Assembly: GCA_913063495.1 (NCBI GenBank)
Contig: CAJXXT010000032.1
Span: forward strand, 1 to 36,689
DNA: 36,689 nt
Direction of reading: 5' to 3'
Origin: an uncultured Gammaproteobacteria bacterium
GTDB lineage: Bacteria; Pseudomonadota; Gammaproteobacteria; Pseudomonadales; Ketobacteraceae
Shown: piece after piece, positions 16,695-36,636 of the stretch
How positions within the stretch are numbered: the first letter of the stretch is position 1
Layout of the letters: each line of letters starts with the position of its first letter
Program-made: the position numbers and the translations under genes
The notes under the pieces: generated by a model
Told to the model about the DNA's origin: nothing
Seen by the model: only the letters and a program-made list of their open reading frames with translations
Databases searched by the model: none

Positions 16695-16778
16695 AAGTAA
16701 TTGGCCCACCTTCGCTCACACACTTTATCGTTAGCCAATTATCCTAAGCCCTTATTATTGAATTACAAGAGAAGAACG

Positions 16779-18216: not shown

Positions 18217-18217
18217 A

Positions 18218-20509: not shown

Positions 20510-20658
20510 AATACTCTCCTTTATTAGTGTTAATACCAATAAACGTACGAGTTATATATTCGTTGACAACAAATAAAGAATTTTTTGATAATTGATTTTT
20601 GAAGGGAGTGGAGTTAGGCCGGCGGGTTATTTTGGTCAGACAATTATTTACAATACTG

Positions 20659-20733: not shown

Positions 20734-22044
20734 TTAATGTAGTTTTAACCTAGGTCGGATAAAATGGTTAATCTTATCCGATAAAGCCACAAGCAACGTT
20801 TTAAACCAACCATGGATCGCCAACTGGTGCATCCGGTACAAAGAAACATACGCTAAACGTGCAATACGACCTTCCACACTCAAACTGCCCGTTGAAAGCC
20901 CCCCCATCAACCGTCCAAATGCGGTGAAATCACTCAAAGAAACCAAAGAACCATAATCACTATATTTAAAGTCAACAAGAGGTTTTCCTGAATGAAGGTT
21001 ACAAAGATTTTTTGCCACCAAACTTGCCATCTGATGAGCTGACTGAGCTCTTGGTGGTACCCAGCGCACCTCGCCATCGGCCCCCATCATTTCACAACCA
21101 GCACAATCACCCAAAGCGAATATTGCGGTATCACCCTTCACTTGTAATGTAGAATCCACAAGCAATTGATTTGCACGATTGGTTTCAAGCCCACCAAAAC
21201 CACGCAGAAATTCTGGGGCTTTTACACCCGCGGCCCATACAATAAGATCAGCCTCAAAGCGTGTTCCGTCTTTTGTGATAAGCGCGCCTTTTTCCGCACA
21301 AGTAATCATCGTAGAAAGATTCACGTTAACCCCAAGCACTTCCAGCTCCGTATAAACCGCCGAGGAAATCCGTTCACTTAGCGCAGGCAACAAACAAGGG
21401 CCAGCCTCTATCAGTGAAACTTGTAAATGCTCTGGTCTAACATTGTGCAAGCCATAAGTAGCAAACAACTGTCGCGCTTTAAATAACTCGGCTGAAAGCT
21501 CAACTCCTGTCGCACCACCACCGACAATAACCACATGCAATTTACGTTCAACATGGGTTTTTGCCAAGTCTCGATTCAACCGAATAAATTGATTAACCAA
21601 ACGACGTTGAAATGTTTTTGCCTGAGATATACTATCCAAGAAAATACAATTTTCTGCTACGCCCTCAATGCCAAAGTCATTAGATACACTACCAATAGCC
21701 AATACTAAATAATCATATGGTTCTTCGCGCTGAGGTAAAATCTCTTCGCCATTCTCGTCAAATAACGCGGCTAGCTTAATGACTTTCTTATCACGATCAA
21801 CGCCACACAACGTACCAACTTTAAACGTAAATCCGTTGTAATGGGCATGCGCGCGATACCCCACGGCATCCGCTTCTGCATCCAATGAGCCTGACGCCAC
21901 CTCATGCAATAACGGCTTCCAAATATGGGTATGATTGCGGTCAAACAACAGCACTTCTGCTTTATCTTTGCGCCCCAACTTTTTACCTAATGATGTTGCT
22001 AGCTCTAAGCCACCCGCACCGCCTCCAACAATTACAATTTTCAT
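20734..22044 (-). CDS. ndh: Type II NADH dehydrogenase (NDH-2)
   Basis: Single-subunit, non-pumping NADH:quinone oxidoreductase on the inner face of the cytoplasmic membrane. 436 residues, normal for the family. FAD-binding IVGGGAGGLELATSLG (5-20) and NADH-binding HVVIVGGGATGVELSAEL (about 170-187) are both complete. LIVWAAGVKAPEFL and IFALGDCAG (FAD contact) are typical of Ndh, and the C-terminus ends in amphipathic helices suited to membrane attachment. The start ATG has AGGG upstream. A strong inverted repeat lies 24 bp before the start codon. The gene stands alone between the lipoprotein operon and the electron-transfer cluster. Sulfide:quinone reductases are relatives, but the needed cysteines are not evident. 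Confidence 0.92.
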   Translation of the reverse strand: MKIVIVGGGAGGLELATSLGKKLGRKDKAEVLLFDRNHTHIWKPLLHEVASGSLDAEADAVGYRAHAHYNGFTFKVGTLCGVDRDKKVIKLAALFDENGEEILPQREEPYDYLVLAIGSVSNDFGIEGVAENCIFLDSISQAKTFQRRLVNQFIRLNRDLAKTHVERKLHVVIVGGGATGVELSAELFKARQLFATYGLHNVRPEHLQVSLIEAGPCLLPALSERISSAVYTELEVLGVNVNLSTMITCAEKGALITKDGTRFEADLIVWAAGVKAPEFLRGFGGLETNRANQLLVDSTLQVKGDTAIFALGDCAGCEMMGADGEVRWVPPRAQSAHQMASLVAKNLCNLHSGKPLVDFKYSDYGSLVSLSDFTAFGRLMGGLSTGSLSVEGRIARLAYVSLYRMHQLAIHGWFKTLLVALSDKINHFIRPRLKLH

Positions 22045-22067
22045 TTTAATGCCCTATACAAGTAAGA

Positions 22068-22112
22068 TTCCTTTGTATCCCATTGATAAAACATCATTGA
22101 GATACAAAGGAA
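22068..22112. promoter_or_regulatory. 20-bp inverted repeat in the ndh leader
   Basis: The arms TTCCTTTGTATCCCATTGAT (22068-22087) and ATCATTGAGATACAAAGGAA (22093-22112) pair at 18 of 20 positions with a 5-base loop. In the ndh direction the element ends 24 bp before the ATG. A TTGCAT...TATCTC pair with 17-bp spacing overlaps its upstream arm, so it may be an operator lying on the promoter, or an RNA hairpin in the leader. It has no T-run, so it is not a standard terminator. Confidence 0.55.
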
Positions 22113-22212
22113 TTTCACCTAATGCAAATAGATATAAGGCACCAACATAGACTCGGCCTATTTAAGCTGGCAACTATAACAAAATCAGCCGCCTCCGTTA
22201 ATACTTATATCT

Positions 22213-23124
22213 TTATAAACCATACGTTAGCGTCAGCGAATAACTATTAAGATCAGCATCCCCAAACGCCCCCTGAGTCATATTTACATCCACACTCCAA
22301 TGAGTATCTATATCATAAATAATATAAAACCCTATCAACCCGCCGCTATCGCCAGTCGTCGCTGTTCCATTTCCACCTCCGCCGGTACCTCCCCCGCCAT
22401 TAGGTGGCGGTGGAGGTGGCGAAACACCAACATTCTCATCATCAGAGCCCCCCGATACCTGATCATACCAATCCAGACTTACACCTGCGAAAACACCTGA
22501 GGTATCGGATAAATAAAAGTAGTAATCAGTGTTTAATTTTATATTTACGTACCGAAAATCGCTGCTCTCTGAAAGATGCATCTTCGGGTCACCCAATTCA
22601 GCATCAACGTCTTTTTTATCATCCTGTACACCGAACAATACAGTATGCGCCCACAACCCAACTTCCCACTGATAACTTACATCAACATGAGTGACTGCGG
22701 ACTTAATCTCGGCACTCGTAAAAAACTCTTGATTTTTACCATGAACGATTTCAATTTCATCTTCAATTTTTTGGTAAGATGCAAAAAACCCCCAATTGCC
22801 AAAGGAATAACCAGCGCCTACTCTTCTTAGGGATGAGGTAATCTCAGAATTACCAGAATCAACCAAGTCGATATCATCGGACCACCGTCCTACCCCAAAC
22901 TGAAAAAAAGTAGATTCTCCAATATCTACCTCTCCTCCAATGGCTCCCCCAGCTAGACGATAATCCAACTTTATTTTGTCAACCTCTGTAACGTATTCAT
23001 AACTATCTACACCCATGTATAAATTACTGGCATAAATATAGGAAGAACAAAAAGAGGATATCAATACACAACAAGGAATCGCCAGCAGGTGCTTTTGTCT
23101 AAAATTGCGTTTAATAATAACCAT
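22213..23124 (-). CDS. Outer-membrane beta-barrel-like protein with Pro/Gly loop
   Basis: 303 residues from ATG 23124 (GGAG 7 bp upstream; the GTG just before it is in frame but less likely). Signal peptide with cleavage probably after IYA. The mature protein alternates hydrophobic and polar residues in about ten strands and ends in LNSYSLTLTYGL, a barrel-like finish. Between late strands is a low-complexity run of six prolines, then Gly-rich residues (NGGGGTGGGGNGT), most likely an extracellular loop. No family was recognised. It is the last gene of the electron-transfer cluster, 67 bp after the FecR-domain gene; a role in that cluster is inferred only from position. Confidence 0.65.
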   Translation of the reverse strand: MVIIKRNFRQKHLLAIPCCVLISSFCSSYIYASNLYMGVDSYEYVTEVDKIKLDYRLAGGAIGGEVDIGESTFFQFGVGRWSDDIDLVDSGNSEITSSLRRVGAGYSFGNWGFFASYQKIEDEIEIVHGKNQEFFTSAEIKSAVTHVDVSYQWEVGLWAHTVLFGVQDDKKDVDAELGDPKMHLSESSDFRYVNIKLNTDYYFYLSDTSGVFAGVSLDWYDQVSGGSDDENVGVSPPPPPPNGGGGTGGGGNGTATTGDSGGLIGFYIIYDIDTHWSVDVNMTQGAFGDADLNSYSLTLTYGL

Positions 23125-23191
23125 CACCTATCTCCATTTCAGTAATTTTCGAATACAATAACTATTCAAATAATAAATAGTCCAACGTAAA

Positions 23192-24115
23192 TTATCGCCT
23201 ATTTCTTCGAGGCCTATCGATACTTGGTGTCGTTCTCCGAGTTCTAGAATTTGGCCTTGAATGCCGAGACTCTGGCCTTTCACCTTCTTTTACCTGGCCC
23301 TCTTCATGACCCGTTCCCTCACCTTCATCCAACGTCAGTTTCTTCAAAAAAGTTCTAATCTTATCTTTTCCCATCTTCCCATCAAACAATACAAAACAAG
23401 GCACCTGATCAATAACATCACAACGCTGAGTTTGTGTATTGAAAATATTTGATGAACCTTTCTCCACCACAACGCTTCCTTCACAGCTATCTGAAGTAAC
23501 CTGCCCCTGGTATACCGATACAACTTCCGAATTCTCAAGCATTGGCTTTTGATATTTCTTGCATTGCTTTACTTTCTCACGCTCATTCTCACAACGTTCT
23601 CCATCACAGATCCTTACAACCCATTCAGCTCTTCCAGCATGAAGATTGCCGCTAGGAGTGACCAGTGTAAATCGCTCATGAGTCTTCGAGGCGATGGTTC
23701 CTGACGTTATTCTTACCCCGCCACGTACTATTTTCAGATCGATATCACCTGCATCCATTGTGATAGGAAAAGAAACTATATGAAACTCGGTTTCCGGTCT
23801 CAATACAACCCGTGTTAAATCATAGAAGTTAACGGTTAGCCAACCTCCTTTGCCAGTAACAAGCTTATCGCCAGAATAGATTGGTTGTTGAATGTGTAAT
23901 TTTCTCGTTTCACCGTCAAGGCCGGTGGCACTAACCTCACCAACGACCCTAACAATCGATGCAACTGATTTTTCTTTTGCAATCACATCCTCTGAAGCAA
24001 CAAAAACACACACCCATAACAAACACATTAAGGTGATGGGTGAACTAGAAACAAACAAATTCGAAATAAACGAAGTCTGAAAAAACGAAGCCTGCATAAA
24101 GTCACGTCGAATCAT
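23192..24115 (-). CDS. FecR-domain periplasmic protein
   Basis: 307 residues. Its ATG overlaps the TAA of the ten-heme cytochrome by 1 nt (TAATG), so it is translationally coupled. A signal or anchor segment (about 28-43, PITLMCLLWVCVFVA) leads into a FecR-type domain of beta strands (about 50-170): VGEVSATGLDGETRKL, YSGDKLVTGKGGWLTVNF, VVLRPETEFHIV, VRGGVRITSGTIA. Several cysteines follow (CDGERCENEREKVKQC) that may form disulfides. The C-terminus is Arg/Pro-rich. This is the stand-alone, sigma-factor-free kind of FecR protein, not an iron-dicitrate anti-sigma factor; neither FecI nor a TonB receptor is nearby. Its function is unknown. Confidence 0.75.
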   Translation of the reverse strand: MIRRDFMQASFFQTSFISNLFVSSSPITLMCLLWVCVFVASEDVIAKEKSVASIVRVVGEVSATGLDGETRKLHIQQPIYSGDKLVTGKGGWLTVNFYDLTRVVLRPETEFHIVSFPITMDAGDIDLKIVRGGVRITSGTIASKTHERFTLVTPSGNLHAGRAEWVVRICDGERCENEREKVKQCKKYQKPMLENSEVVSVYQGQVTSDSCEGSVVVEKGSSNIFNTQTQRCDVIDQVPCFVLFDGKMGKDKIRTFLKKLTLDEGEGTGHEEGQVKEGERPESRHSRPNSRTRRTTPSIDRPRRNRR

Positions 24116-26436
24116 TATGGTGACTCCGTGGAAAATTCATCGGCTATTTTATCAGCAGATTGACCTTGTCGTTCTGCATGATACTGGTGACAGGTGAGAC
24201 AGTTAGAGGGGGCTCTACCCTGTTGATGGCATTGTGTACAGGTAGATCGAGTCATCGACAAAAAACTTGTTTCGACCATGTTTTTTGCAACCTTACTATC
24301 CAATTTATCCTCTGAATTCTGCGTGTCCTCTGGTAGACCTTCGTTTAATATATGACAGCTCGCACAACCATCATCCGTCATCAAACTAAAATGTGATACA
24401 TGAGAGAACCGATTAAAATCGGTTGTAATGTCATCAGGCCTAAAACTCTGCCAACGCACATCTGGACTTTTATGATCATTATCAACTGTGGTTAAAGAAT
24501 GGCATTTTATACAACCTCCAACCGATTCCTCATCACTTAGCGATTCAAATATTTCATTATGAATAACCTTTTCACTACCAAAAGTCACCTCCAACCATGT
24601 TGCGAGAAACGGATCAGCATGATCAATAGGACGATACCGAATATTACTCCCCTCCCGGTACCACCCGCCGCTCGTGGCCCAATCCTCACTGTTTTTTGCA
24701 TTGATATCTAATGTCTTTTCGCTAACTGCAATATAGTCGACTTCTTCATCCTCATCATCTTCTGAAACATCATCTTCGTCATCACCACTCAAGATATCTT
24801 CATCTTCAAAATCTTCCTCCAAAATATCGTTATCTAAGATATCGCTTTCGTCTTCATCTAAGATACTTTCATCTAAGATACTTTCATCTAACAAATCTTC
24901 ACCCAAAATATCATCACTGGCATTTCCCCCAAGCTCTGAAAGCACTTCAGTTTCAGTCGTGATTCCCGCTATAGGATCAATTGGTTCTTTGTAGTCAAAT
25001 GTATCCGACGCATCAGATTTTGGTATCAACCTGTTATTTTTTCGAAACCCAGAAACCTCGTCTGCCAAGTGAGGAAACCATTCTTTCTGATTATTAATGA
25101 GAGTGTCCCTAGGCAATGAAGATATTAACCGATTTAATGTTGGTTGATCCAAGGTGTAGTTAAAAGCAATCGCAAGGCGCTTATATAACACAGCAGCCCC
25201 ACCACTTTGAATATCATAAAAAAGTTCCTTAATATTCCAAGCGAGACGAGCGACCATAGCAATATCGTGTGTACTTGCCTCACTCAAGTCATATAAAACA
25301 ACATCGCCAGGTAATACAGCAGAGCTCCCCCTCGAAGACTCTGCTCGCCCAGGTAACCCTTGAGTACTACCACTAGAATCATATTGAAGTAACAATTTCA
25401 TAATAGGAGTAACATCACCTTCCGCCCATTCCGGCCAGTCTCCAATCGAGAATCCTGCCGCTGTAATTGCAGCAACATCCAGCTCTGGAATAACAAGCAC
25501 AGCCAAGCCCTTAGCGCTCCCCCTACTCCGTCCTAACAATTGATCCAAATGACAGCCACCGCACGTGTCCTCAAAATTATTGGATAACATCCACTCCCCT
25601 GTTTGATCGGATTCATGACATTGCTTACAGCCTTCCGGGGCGATTTCAATATATTCGTCGTCGTAAAAATAGTTATCTAGATGTGCCCCGTGATTGAATT
25701 TTATTTGCGTAGCCTTATCGTTCGGATAATTACTATATTCCGGGTGCGACTCTTCAATGACATCAAACTTTTTTTCGTGACATGTATGGCAACGTCGGGC
25801 ATCAAAATTATTAATAGCATGAAACTTTCCTTTATGCTCCCGGTGACAAGAAGAACAGCTAGTAGATTCCTTGGTAGGCATACGGACCTTATTTAATTGA
25901 CTTGCCAAATCAACTTTCCAACTTACATTCACTGAAGCTGATTTTTCATGAATAATTACATCATAATCAATAGTGGAAAAGTTCTTATAATGCGTTGAAT
26001 GTGCCTCAAAAGCATTTTTTCCTAATTCATGACAAGCTAGACACTGCTGATCGTCATTGTTACTGTTTAACGTCAATGCCTTCTGTAACCAGTGATAAAT
26101 AGGTTCTCCCGCAGCAGTATGGCAATCCTGGCAACCCGCCACCTCACCATGACTGAGACTTAACGCACCCGGTGAAAGCATCGGTAACAAATTTTTTGCA
26201 GAAAAGACAATAATTAGCCCTCCAACAAATATCGATAGCAAGCCAATAGCAGCAATACGTTTTTTAGATCGAACAGATCTAATCGGTACACAAGGCTCAT
26301 CGACGCAAGTGCATCTCCCTTTTTTATCTGGCCCCTGTTCACACTCATTACACTCTCTTCCACACACCCAAGATTGATTTGGTCGTACATAGGGGCTCTT
26401 TCTATGACCAAATTCTTGAATTGGGGTATCCTTCAT
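24115..26436 (-). CDS. Membrane-anchored ten-heme cytochrome c with acidic linker
   Basis: 773 residues with ten CXXCH sites: 102-106, 132-136, 194-198, 216-220, 270-274, 292-296, 642-646, 691-695, 733-737 and 746-750. One transmembrane helix (about 61-80) puts the hemes in the periplasm. The cytoplasmic N-terminus holds six cysteines (C25, C29, C32, C42, C44, C49, with GPDKKGRC), a knuckle seen ahead of hemes in some uncharacterised cytochromes and possibly a metal site. Six hemes and four hemes are separated by about 345 residues, including an acidic run (about 508-566) with repeats like LLDES and ILDES. The ATG overlaps the cytochrome b stop by 4 nt (ATGA). It probably takes electrons from or gives them to the cytochrome b. 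Confidence 0.88.
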   Translation of the reverse strand: MKDTPIQEFGHRKSPYVRPNQSWVCGRECNECEQGPDKKGRCTCVDEPCVPIRSVRSKKRIAAIGLLSIFVGGLIIVFSAKNLLPMLSPGALSLSHGEVAGCQDCHTAAGEPIYHWLQKALTLNSNNDDQQCLACHELGKNAFEAHSTHYKNFSTIDYDVIIHEKSASVNVSWKVDLASQLNKVRMPTKESTSCSSCHREHKGKFHAINNFDARRCHTCHEKKFDVIEESHPEYSNYPNDKATQIKFNHGAHLDNYFYDDEYIEIAPEGCKQCHESDQTGEWMLSNNFEDTCGGCHLDQLLGRSRGSAKGLAVLVIPELDVAAITAAGFSIGDWPEWAEGDVTPIMKLLLQYDSSGSTQGLPGRAESSRGSSAVLPGDVVLYDLSEASTHDIAMVARLAWNIKELFYDIQSGGAAVLYKRLAIAFNYTLDQPTLNRLISSLPRDTLINNQKEWFPHLADEVSGFRKNNRLIPKSDASDTFDYKEPIDPIAGITTETEVLSELGGNASDDILGEDLLDESILDESILDEDESDILDNDILEEDFEDEDILSGDDEDDVSEDDEDEEVDYIAVSEKTLDINAKNSEDWATSGGWYREGSNIRYRPIDHADPFLATWLEVTFGSEKVIHNEIFESLSDEESVGGCIKCHSLTTVDNDHKSPDVRWQSFRPDDITTDFNRFSHVSHFSLMTDDGCASCHILNEGLPEDTQNSEDKLDSKVAKNMVETSFLSMTRSTCTQCHQQGRAPSNCLTCHQYHAERQGQSADKIADEFSTESP

Positions 26437-27251
26437 GCAGCGCCCCTAAAGGCATACACCAATACGATATGCAAAATGGTCACCAAAATAAGAATCAACG
26501 CCATAGGAAAATGTAACACTCCCCAGTACTTCAAAACACATTGAATTGCAAAATGGGTATCCAACAAGTTCTTTTTATGTAACATATTATCCAACTCTAA
26601 CGCGTATTCTGCCTCCTTTTTATTTAGGTAACGCAATTGTTTTCCCAAGCCATCTTTTACACGTAGAAACCCATAGTTTGACCCTAATAAATGTGTAAAG
26701 AAAAAATGGTGTCGATCAAAAAAACTGGCTAAATTTGAAAAGTAATAATCCGACAGCGTCGTTGAGCCGGAATCCTCTACGGATTCTACAATTATCGCTT
26801 CAACATCACGGCGAAGCTTCGTTAAATGCTGAGGAATTCGTTCGAAAATAATTTCTTCATCTAAGTAAGAAAGCCTACGAGCAAAAACTCTATTAATAAA
26901 CACACCAAGAACGCCACTAGACATAACAACCAGGTAAAAAACAGTAATCGTAGTTTCAACAATCCCATCAGGAAACGTATATTCAATATGTTTCAGATAA
27001 ACAAGAAATAGAAAAAAACCGCTATAATAATGCCATTGTGCCCACTGAGAACCTGAACCAAGGACAATAACCGCCAATTTCTTTTTTGCATAAAAAGACA
27101 CCAGTATGGTCATCAAAAGCACCATAAACCAACCGGAGTAATACTGTTGTACCTGAATAGACAAATCAATTATTTCAAAAGCGGTGATAGCAACAAAACC
27201 ACAAATCAATACCGCAATAGTATTTCGAATACGGCGATAACCAAAATTCAT
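26433..27251 (-). CDS. Membrane cytochrome b with two H-x13-H pairs
   Basis: 272-residue inner-membrane protein. Helices lie at about 10-30, 38-56, 75-92, 100-120 and 243-267. Two helices carry histidines spaced as in di-heme cytochromes b: His74-x13-His88 (HYYSGFFLFLVYLKH) and His247-x13-His261 (HFPMALILILVTILH). These four could bind two hemes b spanning the membrane. A long soluble insert (about 125-232) rich in charged residues and with His181/His182 separates the pairs, which is unusual. The ATG follows the stop of the iron-sulfur gene with no gap, and the stop overlaps the ten-heme gene. The arrangement suggests a quinone-interacting membrane subunit linking the [4Fe-4S] protein and the ten-heme cytochrome. 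Heme binding is inferred, and the exact family was not identified. Confidence 0.72.
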   Translation of the reverse strand: MNFGYRRIRNTIAVLICGFVAITAFEIIDLSIQVQQYYSGWFMVLLMTILVSFYAKKKLAVIVLGSGSQWAQWHYYSGFFLFLVYLKHIEYTFPDGIVETTITVFYLVVMSSGVLGVFINRVFARRLSYLDEEIIFERIPQHLTKLRRDVEAIIVESVEDSGSTTLSDYYFSNLASFFDRHHFFFTHLLGSNYGFLRVKDGLGKQLRYLNKKEAEYALELDNMLHKKNLLDTHFAIQCVLKYWGVLHFPMALILILVTILHIVLVYAFRGAA

Positions 27252-28973
27252 TTAACGATCAACCCAGTGAGATAAACTTGATATATCTTTAAGGTCGATG
27301 CGAGTTAACGCATCATGAGAACAGGCCCTCTCACATGCTGGCTTTCCGGTTGTTTCAGCACAGAGATCACATTTACTCGCTTTAACAATGGCTTTCCCAT
27401 TGGCATCACGATACACCTTACCCGTTTCATCTCTAATTTCCACCATTCGAATATTATCATAAGGGCAGTTGTTCGCGCAGGTAGAACACCCTATACAGGT
27501 ATTATCATTAATTTTTACCACGCCATCCGGTGATCTATGAATCGCACCAGTAGGGCATCCAATCATGCACACAGGGTCTTCACAGTGCATGCAGGCATTG
27601 GCAATCATATAGCGTTCAAAACTTTTACCATGACGATTAAAGCGAGGGTTATTATCATGCGCATCAGCACAAGCTGTCACGCAATCATCACAGCGGACAC
27701 ATCGCTCCAAATCAATCACCATCGATTTGGAGCCATTAATAAGTCGATTTTCAACCAAAAACTCTGTTAACTTTCTGTCAATGGGCTTGGCCTTTGACTG
27801 CTTGTTAATAGATTGATTATCCTTTAACGCATCCTGTAGGGATTGTTTAACCCCCTTCGAAGCACTTTCACTAAATATATTTATTTCCAACCACGCTGTC
27901 GGTATCCTTATAACATCAGTATACCCCAACGCCCGAAAGCTACAATTCAGGGCAGTGCCTTTACCCTTCTTCCAAGATTCATAGACTTCTTCCAACCCAA
28001 ACATGTCACCACGACTTAAATACCCCATCGTGTAATGTCCAAAATTGATATACCGACTAATTCTGCCAAAACCGTTTTGCACCAAAAGCAAACCATCGGG
28101 ATAATCCCCTTCCTGTGCTATCACAGGTTCCGATTGAATGATTTTATTGTAGTCCTCCTCTGTTTTTGCCAGTTTACTTATCGATTGAAACCCCTTCTGC
28201 CATTCGAATTCACCATGCACTTCAAATAACGCTAATGCCGCCAACTCATGTATTTTATTTGCAGGAAGCTTGGAAAACAGTGGCAAAGAAAGCAAATGAT
28301 AATAAAGCCCTCTCTCCCGATATAAATGATCAATATATTCCCTAAACCCGCGCTCTCTCTTTCTAATATCCCGCAAACCCTGCCATCGTATTTCCAACAG
28401 CTCCACGTTGCCCAAAGCAACGACGGTATTCCTCATTTCACTACGACCTAACACAGCTGATTCACCAAAAATATCTCCCGTAACCAATCGAGAAATAGTT
28501 GGATCCTCATTGTCTATTGTATCTGGTATGCGATCAATTTCCAGGAAAGCTAGTTGGTCATTTTTTGGAATCGCGGTAACACCCCGCCGTACTTCGGGTA
28601 AATGACTCCTACGTAACCAGCTCCACAATACATTGAGAGTTGAAGGGATTTTGTACGTTGTAGGCTTTAAAAAACTAAGAGCACTGTCCAAAGGAGACAG
28701 CATAGCCACCTCACCTGACAGTAACAGAAATGCTGAATTGACATATTCCCCAGATCTAATAACAACCTGGTTTTTATCGAATGTTCGAATCCTGCAATCA
28801 TTACGAATTATTTCCGTTAATTTTAGAGTACTCGGAAAGTTATTGCGATTCATCGAACAAAAATGCGGCGCAGACAATACCCTTACAACACTTTTAGCAC
28901 TCATAGTACTATCAAAAGGCTGATCCCATCGCTTTGGTCTATCTATTACACTGCTATGTAAACTATCGTTCAC
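27252..28973 (-). CDS. Two cyclic-nucleotide-binding-like domains fused to a four-cluster [4Fe-4S] electron-transfer domain
   Basis: 573 residues from GTG 28973 (13 bp after the upstream stop). The frame runs further up inside the neighbour, but only this start keeps the segment DRPKRWDQPF that opens similar proteins; ATG 28904 is the alternative. Two CNBD-like regions follow: about 60-200 (VIRSGEYVNSAFLLLSGEVA, TGDIFGESAVLG) and about 275-365 (AQEGDYPDGLLLVQNGFGRI, GDMFGLEEVY). The C-terminal part is DmsB-like, with sixteen cysteines for four [4Fe-4S] clusters: C425-C435, C461-C473, C493-C503 and C535-C551. It is soluble and cytoplasmic by sequence, probably docking on the cytochrome b. Whether it binds cAMP or is a structural relic is unknown; the first domain carries a long insert. 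Confidence 0.85.
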   Translation of the reverse strand: MNDSLHSSVIDRPKRWDQPFDSTMSAKSVVRVLSAPHFCSMNRNNFPSTLKLTEIIRNDCRIRTFDKNQVVIRSGEYVNSAFLLLSGEVAMLSPLDSALSFLKPTTYKIPSTLNVLWSWLRRSHLPEVRRGVTAIPKNDQLAFLEIDRIPDTIDNEDPTISRLVTGDIFGESAVLGRSEMRNTVVALGNVELLEIRWQGLRDIRKRERGFREYIDHLYRERGLYYHLLSLPLFSKLPANKIHELAALALFEVHGEFEWQKGFQSISKLAKTEEDYNKIIQSEPVIAQEGDYPDGLLLVQNGFGRISRYINFGHYTMGYLSRGDMFGLEEVYESWKKGKGTALNCSFRALGYTDVIRIPTAWLEINIFSESASKGVKQSLQDALKDNQSINKQSKAKPIDRKLTEFLVENRLINGSKSMVIDLERCVRCDDCVTACADAHDNNPRFNRHGKSFERYMIANACMHCEDPVCMIGCPTGAIHRSPDGVVKINDNTCIGCSTCANNCPYDNIRMVEIRDETGKVYRDANGKAIVKASKCDLCAETTGKPACERACSHDALTRIDLKDISSLSHWVDR

Positions 28974-28986
28974 AATAAGTTTTCCA

Positions 28987-29997
28987 TTACCCTCCAAACA
29001 CCTTCCCCTTGTATTTATCTGGCGATGGCAAGGCACCATCCACACCAGAAAACCCACTCCCATCATATTTATCTGCAAAGGTTGATGCTTGTTTTGATAT
29101 TTTTTCTGCCGCACTTTCCAGCGCCGACTCATTATTGAGGGTTATTTTGACTTTCAAAGCAATACCAATAATGTTGGTTAGCTGTTCATTGTCGACGGTT
29201 TTATCAATTTTCTTCAAAAAAGCTAATGCTCGCTTCGCTCTCTTAGCCATTGCTAGTGCATACTTATCTTTTATTGTTGCCTTTGCTACTCCACGCAAGG
29301 CATATTCAAGATCTAACATTTTTCCAACGATATAAAACATTCGTCGCCGGTTCATGCTCGCCTCTGTATTATCATCGCTATACCAAAGATTATGCCTTAC
29401 TTCACCTTGGGACCAGCGAATCAACTCAAACTTGCTACCGGCAGTATGCCCACCCACATTAACCAACTTTTCATTGGGAACGGTATGACAGCTGTAACAG
29501 TTTTCAGCGAGTGAATAAAGATTATTGGGTCGTATCATTCCTGCAGCATCTGACTCTTTATATCTCTTCACTTTATGTTCAGGTACTTCATTTTCTGCTT
29601 TTATATCTTTACCCCCAAAATCGCTATGCACATCAATCCATTCTGATCCTGCGCTATGACATGATTCACAGGATATCCCAGCAATAGGTTTTTCTTTACC
29701 CTTCTTAGTTGCTACCGTGAAATGACACGTCAAACAATCACTTTCAGACTTAATACGCTTTATACCCATCTTATCCGCAATCTCTCGAGCTTCATCACTA
29801 CGAGGCATTTCAGAAAACGTTTTAGAATGATGTGTTTGTTTCCAGGCTTTAACCGTTTCTTTATGGCACTCACCACATGCATCAACGCCTTTCACTTTAT
29901 CGGGATCGAGGCGAAGATCACTAGCTTGCAACACCGATGAAAAACAAAGCATACCTAGAATAACCAACCATCTACTTATAAAATATTTACTCAACAT
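28987..29997 (-). CDS. Four-heme cytochrome c, c554-like
   Basis: 336 residues from ATG 29997, which follows GAGAGGG; the frame opens earlier at a TTG without a site. Signal peptide (SRWLVILGMLCFSSVLQAS), then four CXXCH sites at 41-45, 88-92, 110-114 and 167-171. The opening DACGECHKETVKAWKQTHHS and the later CLTCH and CESCHSAG are like cytochrome c554-type periplasmic electron carriers, though the C-terminal half (about 200-336) is helical and heme-free. It is a soluble periplasmic carrier by sequence. The gene sits between the reductase (38 bp gap) and the iron-sulfur gene. No hydroxylamine oxidoreductase is present, so the name is by fold only. Confidence 0.85.
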   Translation of the reverse strand: MLSKYFISRWLVILGMLCFSSVLQASDLRLDPDKVKGVDACGECHKETVKAWKQTHHSKTFSEMPRSDEAREIADKMGIKRIKSESDCLTCHFTVATKKGKEKPIAGISCESCHSAGSEWIDVHSDFGGKDIKAENEVPEHKVKRYKESDAAGMIRPNNLYSLAENCYSCHTVPNEKLVNVGGHTAGSKFELIRWSQGEVRHNLWYSDDNTEASMNRRRMFYIVGKMLDLEYALRGVAKATIKDKYALAMAKRAKRALAFLKKIDKTVDNEQLTNIIGIALKVKITLNNESALESAAEKISKQASTFADKYDGSGFSGVDGALPSPDKYKGKVFGG

Positions 29998-30035
29998 AAA
30001 ACCCTCTCTACTTTCCAATTTATATACTGATAATA

Positions 30036-31292
30036 TTATGCATTAAGTCGTAATTTAGTCTTGGGAACTGCAATACAGGTTAGGCAAGAACCTTTCTCAA
30101 CATCCGAGTCTGGGTCTTCGATATAGCTAACTTCACCTTCAATCACCGCTGTCAAACATGTTCCACAACTACCTGCTCTGCACCCACTTTCAATTTGAAT
30201 ACCTGCCGCTTCTGCTGCCTCAAGTAACGTGCCAGAAGCAGAGGACCACATAATAGTTTTGTCTGACAAACCAAATGTCACGGGTATTGTCGTTTCCGAT
30301 TTTTCCGGTAGTACTTCTGGTTTTGCGACACCTCGATTAATGCCCGCAGGCCCAAAAGATTCAAAGTGAACCCTTGCCTCACTAACACCGTGTACATGTA
30401 GTCCAGACACCATTGAATCCATCATTGCCCCTGGGCCACAGATGTAAAAATCAGCGGCTAATGGCGCCCCTAACTGAAAAATGGATTCACAAGATATATG
30501 GCCATGGTTACCTGACCCTGGTGCTCGCACTCCAAATGTTCCTGGGGCACTAAAGAAATGATGAAGGTGAAAACCATTGTGTTTAATGCTCATTTGCTTT
30601 AGATGATCGGACATAATCAACTGCTCGATATTTTTCACACCATAAAAAAGCCAAACTTCTCGTTTACTACCTATCTGATCCAAAGTGTTAATCATTGATA
30701 ACATCGGTGTTACTCCAACGCCGCCAGCCACCAATACTATAGGGGTCTTTTCTGTTATATCTAACCAGAACTTTCCTGTCGGAGCCTTAACATCCAATAT
30801 ATCTCCTTCTTCCAATGCTTGATGAAAATAACATGACGCAATGCCATCAATGGCCTCTGGATCCGACGCAGGGGCGATCTGTTTCCTTATTGATACTCTA
30901 TAATGCTCCCTTTGATCACCACTATCAGATAATGAATAACACCGAACCACAGGTTTGCTGATACCAGGAATTTTTAGTCTAAACGTAAGATATTGACCCG
31001 GGTTAAATCGAGGCAATTTTTTCCCATCATGAGGAACAAGATAAAATGATTTAATATGCGAACTTTCATTTACAACTGACTTGATTCTAAATTTTCGCCA
31101 ACCTGACCACGCCCACTCAGCATCGTTCTTTTTTGTGTTTTGGGCGACGACATTGTCAATCTTTTTTTTCAAAAGAACTTTTTCTAAACTAAAAATATAA
31201 CGTGTTCTGCGAACACGAACAATCTGCTCATAACTGAAAACCACGAGTTGAATGACAACTAACGCAAGAATAATAAGACCTAAGTAATACAT
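30036..31292 (-). CDS. Membrane-anchored flavin/[2Fe-2S] NAD(P)H reductase
   Basis: 418 residues. An N-terminal helix (about 3-21) anchors it; the rest is probably cytoplasmic. FAD binding is seen in RCYSLSD (118-124), NAD(P) binding in VLVAGGVGVTPMLSM (186-200) and FYICGPGAMMDSM (282-294), and a C-terminal plant-type [2Fe-2S] domain has C371, C376, C379 and C406 (ESGCRAGSCGTC...SCLTC). This is the order of HCR, VanB and other reductases with a C-terminal ferredoxin domain. AAGGGGGAAAG precedes the ATG, and the gap to the barrel gene is only 15 bp. It could pass electrons from NAD(P)H to the cytochrome b or [4Fe-4S] protein, or run in reverse; direction is unknown. Confidence 0.88.
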   Translation of the reverse strand: MYYLGLIILALVVIQLVVFSYEQIVRVRRTRYIFSLEKVLLKKKIDNVVAQNTKKNDAEWAWSGWRKFRIKSVVNESSHIKSFYLVPHDGKKLPRFNPGQYLTFRLKIPGISKPVVRCYSLSDSGDQREHYRVSIRKQIAPASDPEAIDGIASCYFHQALEEGDILDVKAPTGKFWLDITEKTPIVLVAGGVGVTPMLSMINTLDQIGSKREVWLFYGVKNIEQLIMSDHLKQMSIKHNGFHLHHFFSAPGTFGVRAPGSGNHGHISCESIFQLGAPLAADFYICGPGAMMDSMVSGLHVHGVSEARVHFESFGPAGINRGVAKPEVLPEKSETTIPVTFGLSDKTIMWSSASGTLLEAAEAAGIQIESGCRAGSCGTCLTAVIEGEVSYIEDPDSDVEKGSCLTCIAVPKTKLRLNA

Positions 31293-31307
31293 ACTTTCCC
31301 CCTTGCG

Positions 31308-32753
31308 TTAAAGCTTTATCTGTAACTCAATGCGTGTGCCGTATTCAGCCTTAGCTTCATCTTCAAGCCATGTACTATAGGCATCTAACTGCACAAAAGC
31401 ACGTCGCCCGATTGCTTGTTGAAAGCGCAAAGCGACTCCTTGTTCATTTTTAAAATGTATACGATGTTCTAGCCTGCCACCTACCTCAACAACAATCTGG
31501 CGTCGTGGGCCAAAAAAACGTTGGTAACCTAACGTAAAACCGGAAGTTTTTTGGGCACTATTGCTTATAGGCGCTGGAAGCGAACCAATGCCTTGAGCCG
31601 CAAACAATATACCTGCCCGCCCGAGGGGCCCACCCTCCAAAGGCCCTCTTGCAGCCGAAGTGAAGTTATCAATACCGATAAATCCATTGACATAAACATT
31701 ATTATGACTGCGCGACGGAACCCATGATACTTCCACAAACAATAACACACCATTATCAGACTGCTCTGTTACCGCGGAGGTCGCCTGAGAAATAGCTACA
31801 CGAAAAGCCGTATTTATTTTCCCAATCCGTTGAATTGCCTCACCACCAAAATTCAGAACATCACCAGCCTCATCTCCATCGACATAAACAACATCTACAT
31901 TGTAAGTACTTCTGGCAGAATCAAGCTGATTAAACCAAGCTACCAATTTGCTGTTATCGATATCTTCATTGGTATGCCTATCAATATCATCAATACCGAC
32001 AAAAATAGTAGACCTCCAATTAATCAGCCAAGGATAAGCAGAGAAACGCATATTATTCTTACTTAACCCTATCCCATCCATCGAATCATTGATTAAAAAA
32101 CCATCCATAAACAACATTTGCTGTCGACCGATACTAAAACCTATATCATTTTTTGTACTATCAAAGTAATCGATATTTGGAAATAATTCGGCAAAGTCTC
32201 CTTCGAAAAATAGCGTATCAATTTTGGCATTGGTTTCAGTGTTATTCTCTTCCAATGAATCAGGTTCATATATCTTCCCATAAAACTCACCTTTATCACG
32301 ATCATGCAAGGGGGTTAATCCCAGAAGAATACGTTCGGTTCCTGTTAATTGTAAATTGGCAAACAAATCCAGCCGATTCACCCACTCAGCAACCTCTCCT
32401 CCGGCACCTTCTGAAGGGCGATAACGCTGGTAAGCAGTTCTAAAATTGCCATACACCCAAAGTGCAGGGCTCCACACCGCACCAGTAGGAAGAACAAAAC
32501 CAGGCTCAATATTTCCTGTACCAAGAAACGATGCTCCCAATTCAACAATCGGTGGCGTTCGGGCAGGTAAATCACCATCGGAAAGATATTTATCCCCATC
32601 GCGAGGTAACGTGGGGTACGCATCACCATAACTTACTGAGCTTAGGCATGTAGCAGTAATAAAAAAAATCCACAAGAAAGCCATTCGTTTTACTTTATGC
32701 TTTATAACTGTATATTTTAGAACTGTATTTTTTAGAACTACATTACGTTTCAA
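31308..32753 (-). CDS. Outer-membrane beta-barrel (porin-like) of the electron-transfer operon
   Basis: About 481 residues. The start is placed at TTG 32753 because AGGAGGG lies 7 bp before it; TTG 32756 and ATG 32684 are alternatives. The N-terminus is long and basic and contains three imperfect five-residue repeats (VLKNT, VLKYT, VIKHK), then a signal peptide (MAFLWIFFITATCLSSVSYG). The mature part is made of amphipathic strands with paired Tyr/Trp girdle residues and ends in GTRIELQIKL, consistent with an outer-membrane barrel. It lacks the CXXC of MtrB and any heme site. Its place directly after the five-heme cytochrome suggests a porin-cytochrome pair, but this is inference. Confidence 0.68.
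   Translation of the reverse strand: MKRNVVLKNTVLKYTVIKHKVKRMAFLWIFFITATCLSSVSYGDAYPTLPRDGDKYLSDGDLPARTPPIVELGASFLGTGNIEPGFVLPTGAVWSPALWVYGNFRTAYQRYRPSEGAGGEVAEWVNRLDLFANLQLTGTERILLGLTPLHDRDKGEFYGKIYEPDSLEENNTETNAKIDTLFFEGDFAELFPNIDYFDSTKNDIGFSIGRQQMLFMDGFLINDSMDGIGLSKNNMRFSAYPWLINWRSTIFVGIDDIDRHTNEDIDNSKLVAWFNQLDSARSTYNVDVVYVDGDEAGDVLNFGGEAIQRIGKINTAFRVAISQATSAVTEQSDNGVLLFVEVSWVPSRSHNNVYVNGFIGIDNFTSAARGPLEGGPLGRAGILFAAQGIGSLPAPISNSAQKTSGFTLGYQRFFGPRRQIVVEVGGRLEHRIHFKNEQGVALRFQQAIGRRAFVQLDAYSTWLEDEAKAEYGTRIELQIKL
32694..32738. repeat. Three 15-bp tandem repeats in the 5' end of the barrel gene
   Basis: On the minus strand the units are GTTCTAAAAAATACA, GTTCTAAAATATACA and GTTATAAAGCATAAA, placed head to tail. 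They encode the VLKNT, VLKYT and VIKHK repeats ahead of the signal peptide. The unit is in frame, so copy-number change would lengthen or shorten the N-region without breaking the gene. Confidence 0.75.
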
Positions 32754-32771
32754 CAAACCACCCTCCTACTT

Positions 32772-32813
32772 TTAGCACCTAATGTTAGTACCTAATGTTT
32801 AGTACCTACATTT
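32772..32813. repeat. Three 13-14-bp tandem repeats in the gap before the barrel gene
   Basis: TAGCACCTAATGT, TAGTACCTAATGTT and TAGTACCTACATTT lie head to tail just after the five-heme cytochrome stop and before the ribosome binding site of the barrel gene. Their role is unknown; they may be a regulator site or a replication-slippage product, and they change the distance between two co-transcribed genes. Confidence 0.7.
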
Positions 32814-32821
32814 CCCAGCGC

Positions 32822-34813
32822 TTAACGAAGTTCGATAAACTCGACTTTTTCCCAAATAATTTGATGTCCTTTCACAAGCTTATCAGCGATGTTCTTAGCA
32901 GACATCCCATAATCAAATCCAACACCAGAAATCTCTTTCACCAAATTTACCGGTACTGCTGCTGACTTTAATTTGTACGTCAACACTATATTTTTCTTTC
33001 CTTGCAATTGCTTTTCACTAACTTCATAGCGAGCAATACGACTTGCTAATGGCGGTAATGTTTTTCGGTGTTTTCTTGCTCCACCCGGCTGCCCCGTTAA
33101 CATTAAAGATCGGGTAAAAGGCCGAACAAATGGAAGTACATCAACAGACACATTAACTGCAATTATTTGTTCCCGCTCGCCACCGCGTACATTGCGCGTT
33201 AGGAATTTTGACTGTAATGAAAACAGGTAAGAATCCAGTTCAAAATCAGCATCATGCACATAACTAGAATGACTGTCTTTCAAATCACCATTTGGATCCA
33301 AATGTCCGGATTCAAACAACATATCACCATTACGGCTAGTGACACTGATTTCTAACCACACTAAACGCTCAGCATCAAACCCTGTTGGGGCATTGTGTCC
33401 GTCAGTCCCATTGCTCACTTCAATGTCAAATACCAATCCATTTTTATTATGTTCTACAATATTGACATCACTCATTTTGTAACCGTTACGTAAAACTTCT
33501 AACCGTTTAAATTCGGCCCAATCCAACAACAATTGCTGCTCATCAATAATGGCCCTAGCATCATATCGATCATCGATGGATCGCCAACGGTCAGGAAACA
33601 CATACGCCTGATTTACCTGATCCTCAAAACCATCAGTCCCCCAACCTTCGTCAACATTAAAGTCCAACCATTCCTGCAACGTTGCCATCTCTGCTGCTTT
33701 TGAGTTATGTGGAAAAATCCCTGGATGAACAACAGAATAATCAGGGCCTGCGAAAAAATGATTGGTTATTTTTCTATCACTTGTTGCCACACCACCAACC
33801 ATTGCAGCAGGCCCCGTGGCATAACCCGACACTACCCCTTGAACCAATCCCATATGGCAATCTTGGCAGCTTTCTCCGCGAGCAGCAGCAGGGGAATTTT
33901 TATATTCAGAAAATGCCTCCTCCAAACGAAAACCATTAAACAAATTCACGTCATGACAAGACCCACAGAATTGCGATGTTTTTAGCTGGGGAAAATGTCC
34001 AATTTCAGTATGAATTTTTCTCCCAGATTCATCTGGATTCGTAACTACCCGATATTGGTGCCTATTCTCCAGCACTCTTTCTAATTCTTTACCTCCTGTA
34101 GGGCCATACACCTTCGTCAACAAGCCCCCTTCTTCCAATGCAATTCGCCCAGACACTTTCCCGTACGCTTGATTCACACGGTGACAAACAACACAAGTAA
34201 TACCTTCTCTAGAGGTTGGGTGTCGCTCTAAGTTTGATGCATAGGTGGATTCCCCAAAATTCATACCGACCTGATTATGGCAACGGATACAAAAATCACC
34301 ATTTGTTCCGTTGGTTAACTCATTGATTTTATTTTGCATCGCCATATAAATAGGGCTTAATTGTGCATAAGCATGCTGCGATACCGACCACTCTTTATAG
34401 TGTTGTTCATGACAGACTTTACAGGTATTTGCGGACGGGTAACGGCTCTCTGCAAAAAGTTCCAAATGTGCTTTCCCAGCCGTATCATTCTTACTCGATG
34501 CTATTTCAGGATTAGAACCATCGACACTCGGATCATCATCATCCTCTGACAAATCATTTAGCTCATCACCCGTCAGATCATCAGACAAACTGTCAGACTC
34601 TTCTAACAACGATTCCTCCAACAACGACTCATCCAGTAAATCATCACCAAGCAATTCATCATCAGCCACTAACAAATCATCTGCGTAACTGAAAGAGACA
34701 AGACTAAACATAGGTAGCGATGAAGATTCGCCAACAGCGGTCATTAGGCCTAAGAATAAAAAAGCAAAAAGAAAAGTCTGCAGTGGTCGAATGTAATGAG
34801 ATGTTAGTTTCAT
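32822..34813 (-). CDS. Five-heme cytochrome c with N-terminal acidic repeat and C-terminal beta domain
   Basis: 663 residues. The signal peptide cleaves near FSYA-DD (about 44-45). An acidic tract (about 45-95) carries the repeats LLDES, LLEES, LLEES. Five CXXCH sites follow at 131-135, 175-179, 207-211, 283-287 and 316-320, in a c554-like arrangement (CKVCHEQHYKEWSVSQHAY). Residues about 450-650 form a beta-rich, heme-free domain with the motif NGTDGHNAPTG. It is periplasmic or exported; no lipobox was found. It is the first gene of the nine-gene operon. There is no clear ribosome binding site: a small hairpin sits directly before the ATG. I infer an electron carrier or terminal reductase, but no known substrate site was recognised. 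Confidence 0.85.
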   Translation of the reverse strand: MKLTSHYIRPLQTFLFAFLFLGLMTAVGESSSLPMFSLVSFSYADDLLVADDELLGDDLLDESLLEESLLEESDSLSDDLTGDELNDLSEDDDDPSVDGSNPEIASSKNDTAGKAHLELFAESRYPSANTCKVCHEQHYKEWSVSQHAYAQLSPIYMAMQNKINELTNGTNGDFCIRCHNQVGMNFGESTYASNLERHPTSREGITCVVCHRVNQAYGKVSGRIALEEGGLLTKVYGPTGGKELERVLENRHQYRVVTNPDESGRKIHTEIGHFPQLKTSQFCGSCHDVNLFNGFRLEEAFSEYKNSPAAARGESCQDCHMGLVQGVVSGYATGPAAMVGGVATSDRKITNHFFAGPDYSVVHPGIFPHNSKAAEMATLQEWLDFNVDEGWGTDGFEDQVNQAYVFPDRWRSIDDRYDARAIIDEQQLLLDWAEFKRLEVLRNGYKMSDVNIVEHNKNGLVFDIEVSNGTDGHNAPTGFDAERLVWLEISVTSRNGDMLFESGHLDPNGDLKDSHSSYVHDADFELDSYLFSLQSKFLTRNVRGGEREQIIAVNVSVDVLPFVRPFTRSLMLTGQPGGARKHRKTLPPLASRIARYEVSEKQLQGKKNIVLTYKLKSAAVPVNLVKEISGVGFDYGMSAKNIADKLVKGHQIIWEKVEFIELR

Positions 34814-34828
34814 ACGAGTGGTTACTCG
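34814..34828 (-). promoter_or_regulatory. Small hairpin directly before the start codon of the cytochrome operon
   Basis: CGAGT and ACTCG pair around a 4-base loop and end one base before the ATG of the five-heme cytochrome, where a ribosome binding site would be expected. No good Shine-Dalgarno sequence is seen. It may limit translation initiation of the first gene. Confidence 0.3.
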
Positions 34829-34921
34829 ATTGGGGCGATACTTATATTTAACCTTAATTTAATTCGACGATAAATCAATTGGGTGAACGGAATATCCTTA
34901 TTCTTTTCATAGTTTACAGAA

Positions 34922-34944
34922 TCGTTAGAAACACCTTCTAACGA
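34922..34944. promoter_or_regulatory. 9-bp perfect dyad upstream of the cytochrome operon
   Basis: TCGTTAGAA (34922-34930) and TTCTAACGA (34936-34944) are exact mirror arms with a 5-bp spacer, 109 bp upstream of the first gene of the electron-transfer operon. No T-run follows on either strand. The 23-bp size and position fit an operator for a dimeric regulator. The 34814-35188 gap (375 bp) contains no other gene; an AT-rich stretch with TATAAG near 34850 may be the -10 region. Confidence 0.5.
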
Positions 34945-35118
34945 CCAATTTAAGCCTAATTACTCCCTAATGCTTTGAATTAATTATCTATTCTTAGTCA
35001 CGCATTACATCACACCCCCGTACCCGCAGAATAGAAGAGGCTAACATCATTAGTCCAGCACTATTTGACCGGTTCAATATCCATCAAAATACAACTAAAA
35101 ATAATGCCCGCAATGCAA

Positions 35119-35150
35119 GGTTATGCTACACGTCACGTGACAGCATAACC
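35119..35150 (-). terminator. Possible terminator or operator after the MAPEG gene
   Basis: GGTTATGCT (35119-35127) and AGCATAACC (35142-35150) form a perfect 9-bp stem; the 14-bp loop contains a second palindrome, GTCACGTGAC (35132-35141). It lies 39 bp beyond the MAPEG stop codon. No strong T-run follows, so termination is weak or the site binds a regulator. It also lies upstream of the cytochrome operon. Confidence 0.4.
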
Positions 35151-35188
35151 CACTTATACACATTAACATCTGATTCCAATGTTAAAAC

Positions 35189-35638
35189 TTATAGTGAAAT
35201 TGACATCAGATTGGCGGCAAGAACACCACTCATAATAATTAACGTCACTACACCAACAATAAAAACCCTAAACCGTGCAGGAACATAATTGGACCCCGTA
35301 TGGATGTAGGCATGAATCAAGCGACTAATCACATACACCCAGGCCAGTACCAATACCGTCATACTCACTGTTTGTGTCGCTATAAAAGCGAAGACCAACG
35401 CATAAAATAGAATCGGGGTTTGGAATTGATTTTGAATATTATTCGATACTTTAAGCACCTCATCAGGCCATGCGCTATTATCCAACGCGGCTTTTTTTCT
35501 ATCAACTAGGCCCGCTTTTACCGCCGCAGCTTTTCTTGCCCCCATCACAATAAACACACTGAGGGTTAACGTCACCTGAACCAATACTGGCCATAAGGCC
35601 AGAGCCGCATTCATTTGTTCGTTCATCTCTCCACTCAT
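35189..35638 (-). CDS. MAPEG-family membrane protein
   Basis: About 149 residues with four transmembrane helices, the size and topology of the MAPEG family (membrane-associated proteins in eicosanoid and glutathione metabolism). The first helix is WPVLVQVTLTLSVFIVMG, followed by a basic loop with R/K residues and the conserved-looking segment NNIQNQFQTPILFYALVFAF, the MAPEG pattern of Asn and Gln around NQFE-like residues. The bacterial role is mostly unknown; many are called inner-membrane proteins. ATG 35638 has GAGG at better spacing (9 bp) than ATG 35644 (3 bp). It follows the MipA-family gene by 64 bp on the same strand. Confidence 0.8.
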   Translation of the reverse strand: MSGEMNEQMNAALALWPVLVQVTLTLSVFIVMGARKAAAVKAGLVDRKKAALDNSAWPDEVLKVSNNIQNQFQTPILFYALVFAFIATQTVSMTVLVLAWVYVISRLIHAYIHTGSNYVPARFRVFIVGVVTLIIMSGVLAANLMSISL

Positions 35639-35702
35639 TATCATTATCCTCTTTTATTAGTCGTTTTTTATTGATGTCTTTAAAAAGTCTATAAATCATT
35701 CA

Positions 35703-36593: not shown

Positions 36594-36636
36594 TAAACGA
36601 TTCCCCATTCATTTTCTGGCTGATTATATCACAGGC

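Follow-up and report, generated by a model that had tools for sequence, protein, structure and literature searches.

Which electron path, if any, do nine closely spaced redox genes of an uncultured bacterium build, and in which direction would it run? The question is raised by a 36,689-nt stretch of contig CAJXXT010000032.1 (hereafter the window) from an uncultured gammaproteobacterium of the Ketobacteraceae, in which a preliminary description had seen an electron-transfer operon with no visible catalytic subunit and no match to a known cluster. The lack of a match does not hold, since seven of the nine genes fit the text description of Subgroup II of PCC4, the putative porin–cytochrome cluster of He et al. 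2017 (PMC5566968), itself only a predicted type. The conserved core thus comprises seven of the nine genes; the other two, a FecR-domain gene and the last gene, are local additions, found beside the core in the clade nearest the window (the near clade) and at locus L025 but at none of the other loci examined. As to direction, we lean towards a PCC4 Subgroup II cluster through which the net flow of electrons in this host would be outward.

The main text of He et al. describes PCC4 as a porin together with three periplasmic cytochromes (4, 5 and 10 haem sites) and an inner-membrane protein of five transmembrane (TM) helices, in which SGXXG lies on TM4 and WX3HX13H on both TM3 and TM5. The tetrahaem gene is preceded by a redox gene, and in Subgroup II an Fe–S gene of family PF13247 additionally precedes the gene of the inner-membrane protein. 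PCC4 was first observed in four Zetaproteobacteria and a Hyphomicrobium of a pyrite-oxidising enrichment, then in genomes from drinking-water filters; Subgroup II occurs mostly in marine hosts, which belong to the Zeta-, Gamma- and other Alphaproteobacteria and to the Planctomycetes, and Oceanospirillum beijerinckii DSM 7166 is among the PCC4 hosts that the paper names (PMC5566968).

The window holds each of these parts. Its three cytochromes c contain 5, 4 and 10 CXXCH motifs, exactly as counted in the preliminary description, against maxima of 1, 1 and 2 in 20,000 composition shuffles per protein, and a structural model of the predicted porin gives a barrel. The membrane cytochrome b, which would be the inner-membrane protein, possesses SGXXG and two WX3HX13H motifs, and W70/H74/H88, S112/G113/G116 and W243/H247/H261 are invariant in all 15 aligned sequences (5 of the 20 genomes discussed below lie outside this alignment), so that the four histidines noted earlier are borne out. 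In a plain hydropathy scan four segments of this protein stand out, the stretch of the first histidine pair staying under the threshold, where the PCC4 text gives five TM helices. Directly upstream (gap 0) lies the PF13247 gene (34.7 bits, cut-off 26.2), and an FAD/[2Fe–2S] reductase gene is found upstream of the tetrahaem gene on the same strand with a gap of 17 bp. As in PCC4 Subgroup II, no extracellular cytochrome was recognised in the cluster.

We note four differences from the published description. The window cluster adds the FecR gene and one further gene; its Fe–S protein bears a cyclic nucleotide-binding domain (CNBD), whereas the term "cyclic nucleotide" is absent from the main text of PMC5566968; the acidic repeats and the cysteine-rich stretch described below go unmentioned in the main-text parts of that paper; and the porin is matched here to the OprD/AlgE fold. 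A survey of the open-access literature found no functional test of PCC4 among the papers listed. A single later work there, a 2026 metagenome paper (PMC13264449), mentions PCC4 together with cytochromes, citing the cluster in passing; PMC10734462 treats PCC3 and contains neither the term "PCC4" nor "cyclic nucleotide".

The core is not confined to this organism. A search with the CNBD protein against 57 genomes (its own and those of relatives) gave matches in six: the own genome, the congeners G002 and G003, G047 of another family of the same order (39% identity), and two partial ones, G010 and G053, which were dropped before counting as they matched in the ferredoxin part only. A pattern-based contig scan of 84,980 species, not necessarily exhaustive, gave 17 loci, of which 16 were kept, including those of G002 (L024) and G003 (L026); the Dehalococcoidia locus L040 was rejected as a core locus, matching only in the ferredoxin part and having different neighbours. 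In a class sample of 369 genomes, three matched at 1e-60 (the own genome included), adding G210 and G410. Altogether the core occurs in at least 20 genomes, whose hosts are labelled Gammaproteobacteria, Rhodospirillaceae, Planctomycetes, Acidobacteria/Holophagae and Verrucomicrobiales, nearly all of them metagenome bins in which individual taxon labels may be wrong; the hosts labelled Acidobacteria and Verrucomicrobia extend the groups listed in the text of He et al. Among 72,556 plasmids, no match to the CNBD gene was found at 1e-30. In the CNBD tree 5 of 11 inner branches are well supported, and the tree does not decide on transfer between phyla.

Gene order is largely kept as well. A decahaem-type gene lies downstream of the CNBD gene in 20/20 genomes (some copies are cut at contig ends, and that of G410 has nine motifs), with a separate cytochrome b gene between the two in 19; the 858-residue open reading frame (ORF) of L036 may be a cytochrome b–decahaem fusion. 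Of the 18 loci whose sequence extends far enough to show it, 17 have the tetrahaem gene directly upstream of the CNBD gene, and in L025 it stands at the other cluster end. Pentahaem and porin genes are adjacent in 16/20 genomes; the porin profile matches 18/20, the match lying away from the core locus in two, and in two Acidobacteria the pentahaem–porin pair forms a locus of its own. The neighbourhood search proposed earlier for the cytochrome b/CNBD/decahaem trio has turned out positive, with linkage beyond chance. Two further observations concern the surroundings of the core: a second, divergent pentahaem–barrel pair lies away from it in a Planctomycetaceae bin (L088, 970-3654, on contig C321 of G427), and a 1280-residue ORF with ten CXXCH motifs stands beside it on the opposite strand in G210 (L066:15621-19463).

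Within the genus, the nine genes relocate as a unit. In the own genome (G000) and in G002 they lie between an NDH-2-like gene and a MAPEG gene, the block edges in the window falling in the interval between these flanking genes (22045 to 35188). In G003, blastn with the two flanks places these 261 bp apart with no block between them (L094:5093-5355 on contig C46; NDH-2-like gene at L094:3783-5093, MAPEG-like at 5355-5774, MipA-like at 5790-6626), and all nine genes are found elsewhere, among other neighbours (L026). In G001, which the CNBD search had missed, the decahaem gene is cut by the end of the contig, and the last two genes lie beside NDH-2. The block is thus present, at least in part, in 4/5 genomes of the genus; in the fifth, G004 (87% complete), neither a CNBD nor an NDH-2-like gene was found. 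The flanks share no repeat longer than 10 bp, and there is no obvious insertion signature at the edges.

Table 1. Genes of the cluster, in order of transcription, and of its flanks in the 36,689-nt window
Feature	Position	Strand	Basis and remarks
Pentahaem c-type cytochrome (penta5)	32822..34813	-	5 CXXCH holding all 10 Cys; PF13435 above cut-off; c552 profile match; signal peptide (by eye); acidic Asp/Leu repeat near N-terminus; C-terminal "DGHNxPTGF" region
Outer-membrane beta-barrel (PCC4 "porin"), predicted	31308..32756	-	AlphaFold2 model; fold matches
NAD(P)H reductase with FAD, NAD and C-terminal [2Fe–2S] domains	30036..31292	-	PF00970, PF00175, PF00111; N-terminal hydrophobic segment, by hydropathy count only
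Tetrahaem cytochrome, c554-like	28987..30018	-	4 CXXCH; profile match to c554
CNBD + [4Fe–4S] dicluster protein	27252..28973	-	PF00027 and PF13247 above cut-off; alignment
Membrane cytochrome b (PCC4 inner-membrane protein)	26433..27251	-	two WX3HX13H, SGXXG; hydropathy
Decahaem cytochrome	24115..26436	-	10 CXXCH; Cys-rich stretch before hydrophobic helix; acidic linker
FecR-domain protein (local addition)	23192..24115	-	PF04773, 24.8 bits, cut-off 24
Putative small outer-membrane protein (local addition)	22213..23127	-	ORF
Downstream flank: NDH-2-like FAD oxidoreductase	20734-22044		
Upstream flank: MAPEG and MipA genes	35189-36608		

All nine ORFs were recovered at the coordinates first given for them, on the minus strand, and the gaps in transcription order are 65, 15, 17, 13, 0, −4, −1 and 64 bp, within the limit of 68 bp (with overlaps) described before. 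This spacing takes GTG 28973 as the CNBD start, from which the homologue in L024 aligns; the longest ORF begins at 29132, inside the tetrahaem gene. Scans gave 48 promoter hits against 39.3 ± 6.4 in shuffles and 8 terminator hits against 11.1 ± 3.8, so that the transcript unit cannot be read from them. Pfam supports the FAD/NAD/[2Fe–2S], CNBD, [4Fe–4S] dicluster, c554/MtrC-like multihaem and FecR assignments, in agreement with the earlier labels. The cytochrome b, the porin and the last gene are without a Pfam match, and a PHROGs search gave nothing informative.

Turning to the proteins of the inner unit, the reductase carries four cysteines predicted to bind the [2Fe–2S] cluster (C371/C376/C379/C406), invariant in 12/12 sequences. 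For the cytochrome b there is no credible match among solved structures. The ferric-reductase domain PF01794 matches 4/15 members (best E 0.0063), fewer than the likewise weak DUF4405 (9) and Ni_hydr_CYTB (7), and hhalign gives a probability of 3.2% with a badly built partner alignment, several ORFs of which had been read in a wrong frame, so that this value carries little weight. In the CNBD cassette FGE is kept; the window shares an EMRNT/EMTNT form with L024 and L026, and several distant homologues have a PRxAT-like one. The near clade lacks the usual arginine at the position which we take to be the phosphate-binding one of cyclic nucleotide cassettes. Gating of electron flow by cyclic AMP was considered for the CNBD and dropped for the near clade because of this changed cassette.

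Among the cytochromes, the tetrahaem profile matches Nitrosomonas europaea c554 (1bvb, E 5.8e-15), and the tetrahaem and pentahaem proteins share part of a c554-type core (hhalign 94.7%, 85 columns). The decahaem protein gives weak matches to multihaem structures only (best E 2.8e-05, 4qo5) and none to TIGR03508 at E 0.01. It has six cysteines before the first haem motif in the window, and a cysteine-rich stretch (5-12 Cys, over-long ORF starts included) occurs there in 14/15 homologues, L020 having none; the C..GP...G.C pattern ahead of the hydrophobic helix (window 26250-26436, minus) may bind a metal or a cluster. Acidic Asp/Leu repeats of the DDLL/DDEIL type are found in both the decahaem and the pentahaem protein within the near clade (in the window, 24118-26436 and 32825-34813, minus). 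L027 has them in its pentahaem protein and two Acidobacteria in the decahaem one (loci in all: window, L024, L025, L026, L027, L032 and L033). They are possibly metal-binding or flexible linkers.

The outer unit bears on the claim that no catalytic subunit is visible, which proves too strong. The pentahaem profile matches Thermochromatium tepidum c552 (5ze8) at E 5.7e-15, with five haem motifs in one aligned stretch; the C-terminal PTG region aligns to c552 at 5.0 bits, which is not significant alone. Matches to MccSep (E 0.0039) and MccA (0.01) are weak. In the weak MccSep alignment, its selenocysteine falls opposite a nearly invariant phenylalanine of the pentahaem proteins, suggesting that the MccSep chemistry is probably not shared. 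From the names alone, we infer that MccSep is an ExtKL-like protein. The top NCBIfam match of the pentahaem protein is ExtKL (NF040886), far below threshold with 35 bits against a cut-off of 250, and the DmsE/MtrA-type family TIGR03508 likewise stays below its cut-off (33.6 bits, 192.2). Authors working on cable bacteria place ExtKL in a pentahaem family that structurally resembles c552 (PMC11976967), and preliminary work has implicated ExtKL in selenite reduction (PMC5877670). Given the c552 homology and these published statements, the pentahaem cytochrome may be a terminal oxidoreductase, although its AlphaFold2 model (predicted local distance difference test, pLDDT, 46) is too poor for a fold search or for inspection for an open haem. 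The porin model is better (pLDDT 71), with 20 strand segments from residue 98 on, and supports the first of the two barrels proposed earlier. In Foldseek/VIA comparisons it matches OprD/Occ/AlgE/MOMP barrels, best of all OpdQ with Z 27.3 and rmsd 2.8 over 316 residues and AlgE with Z 23-25; identity in those rows is 6-12%, a likeness of fold only. By sequence, no solved relative was found, and MtrB-type barrels are missing among the fold matches listed (at most 50 per comparison), which is no proof of absence. The model thus gives the PCC4 porin an OprD/AlgE-like solute-channel fold.

From the domains of these proteins we infer their locations and an electron path. NADH would reduce the FAD/[2Fe–2S] reductase, whose electrons would reach the membrane cytochrome b and its two haems either directly or via the CNBD–[4Fe–4S] protein; this cytochrome may also exchange electrons with quinone. 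From there, electrons would pass to the decahaem cytochrome, the c554-like tetrahaem cytochrome and finally the outer-membrane pentahaem–porin pair, so that the cell would dispose of reductant by way of an acceptor in the periplasm, at the outer membrane or outside it. The route suggested before, which links NAD(P)H or ferredoxin with quinones, the periplasm and the outer membrane, is a fair reading and resembles the PCC4 model; what has changed is that the set matches a described cluster. Outward flow is favoured by the NAD(P)H reductase in the cluster and by the lack of a RuBisCO match in the host genome (84.5% complete). RuBisCO was detected in 2/20 hosts, one match having two internal stops (the bins are incomplete and no background rate is available). 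The maturation protein CcmE, found in 13/20 hosts and in the own genome among them, also counts for the proposed path. In PMC13264449, most of the PCC-bearing bins of that study were read as heterotrophs that may export electrons.

Several points weigh against this reading. PCC4 occurs in Fe(II)-oxidising Zetaproteobacteria, and He et al. proposed a flow drawn inward, from an extracellular donor to quinone (PMC5566968). The cluster itself has no recognised extracellular cytochrome, and the porin model does not suggest a wide sheath around a cytochrome. CcmE was not found in the other 7 of the 20 hosts, among them G003, a genome of 96% completeness that carries the cluster. In addition, the parts do not all vary together. 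Across loci, identity distances of all seven proteins correlate with r 0.59-0.96, much of which is driven by the near clade. With L024, L025 and L026 removed (6 to 11 rows, 2000 permutations), the CNBD protein, cytochrome b and decahaem protein co-vary (r 0.76-0.86, 0/2000 each), as do pentahaem and porin (r 0.93, 56/2000). No correlation is seen for CNBD–porin (r −0.32, 7 rows), reductase–porin (r −0.35) and reductase–pentahaem (r −0.25, 6 rows each) or decahaem–porin (r 0.15), and that for CNBD–pentahaem is weak (r 0.40, 8 rows). The missing correlations suggest, on a small sample, that the parts may be separable and may have been recombined. A clean split is disfavoured in that the pentahaem protein co-varies with the tetrahaem protein at r 0.73 (3/2000) and at r 0.65 with both cytochrome b (8/2000) and the decahaem protein (17/2000).

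The opposite direction, in which an extracellular donor such as Fe(II) or Mn(II) would give up electrons to the porin–cytochrome unit and these would pass to the quinone pool and perhaps partly to NAD+, has the Zetaproteobacteria, the Hyphomicrobium of the pyrite enrichment, the drinking-water-filter genomes and the drawing in PMC5566968 on its side. It is nevertheless unlikely: the cluster contains an NAD(P)H reductase, and the reading of its hosts as Fe(II)-oxidising autotrophs is weakened by the scarcity of RuBisCO (by which alone carbon fixation was judged, in incomplete bins), by the porin fold and by the c552 kinship. The bin names of several hosts, which we take to be those of seawater or sewage series, also argue against it. 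The porin fold and the c552 kinship leave room for respiration of a soluble substrate, an oxyanion or another small solute that would enter through the OprD-like channel and be reduced by the pentahaem cytochrome in the periplasm. The weak MccSep and MccA matches, the separate pair in two Acidobacteria and the second pair in the planctomycete lie in the same direction, as does the likeness to the Geobacter ext parts, where loss of extI lowers the reduction of selenite and tellurite and not that of Fe(III)-citrate (PMC5877670). However, likeness of barrel fold does not establish function, it was left open in that work whether ExtI is a channel or a cytochrome anchor, the selenocysteine of MccSep falls on the phenylalanine, and the pentahaem model permits no look at an open haem. 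We regard periplasmic respiration as possible but less likely than not; it overlaps with outward flow, with which it is compatible, and would sharpen its terminal step.

Could the genes be chance neighbours, or two unrelated operons? The outer pair standing apart in the two Acidobacteria and the uncorrelated distances might be taken that way, whereas the same gene set in 20 genomes, with its order largely kept, and the joint occurrence of all nine at two sites within the genus make such an explanation highly improbable. A more tentative idea is that PCC4 is a modular respiratory system rather than a porin–cytochrome wire. Its inner unit (NADH reductase, CNBD–[4Fe–4S] protein, di-haem cytochrome b and decahaem) might then be a split and extended NOX-like transmembrane electron exporter, and its interchangeable outer unit an OprD-like solute channel with a c552/ExtKL-type pentahaem oxidoreductase, a pair that also occurs alone, acting on a soluble periplasmic substrate.

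Comparison with known systems places the cluster further. Geobacter extHIJKLMNOPQS shares a porin (ExtI), 5-, 10- and 4-haem cytochromes, a b-type cytochrome and an Fe–S protein (PMC5877670), but has a Rieske protein instead of the CNBD–[4Fe–4S] protein, an extra 12-haem protein and selenocysteine in ExtKL. MtrAB, MtoAB and PioAB share the idea of a multihaem cytochrome with a porin, whereas the pentahaem protein falls far below the TIGR03508 cut-off and the barrel model resembles OprD-type channels. He et al. had noted the likeness of the HX13H pairs to the NOX/ferric-reductase domain PF01794 (PMC5566968); the NAD(P)H–FAD reductase of the window makes NOX a working analogy, although sequence kinship is not established and the window cluster has Fe–S and multihaem extensions.

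GC content is flat over the whole window (0.40-0.46). Outside the cluster, an arylsulfotransferase-type domain (PF05935) is fused to a YHYH domain (PF14240) at 18218-20539 (minus). Two ORFs without a Pfam match lie at 17443-18315 (minus) and 16701-17414 (plus), the latter looking by eye like a multi-pass membrane protein. A genome-wide scan for CXXCH gave at least 647 sites, against 308 for the reversed pattern.

What is new here is the OprD/AlgE-like model of the porin, the kinship of the pentahaem cytochrome with c552, the finding of RuBisCO in only 2/20 hosts and the two sites of the block within one genus. A solute channel paired with a periplasmic oxidoreductase would offer a concrete alternative to the iron-oxidation model of PCC4. 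The gene set is real and common to distant bacteria, and in these organisms it probably builds an electron path across the cell envelope.

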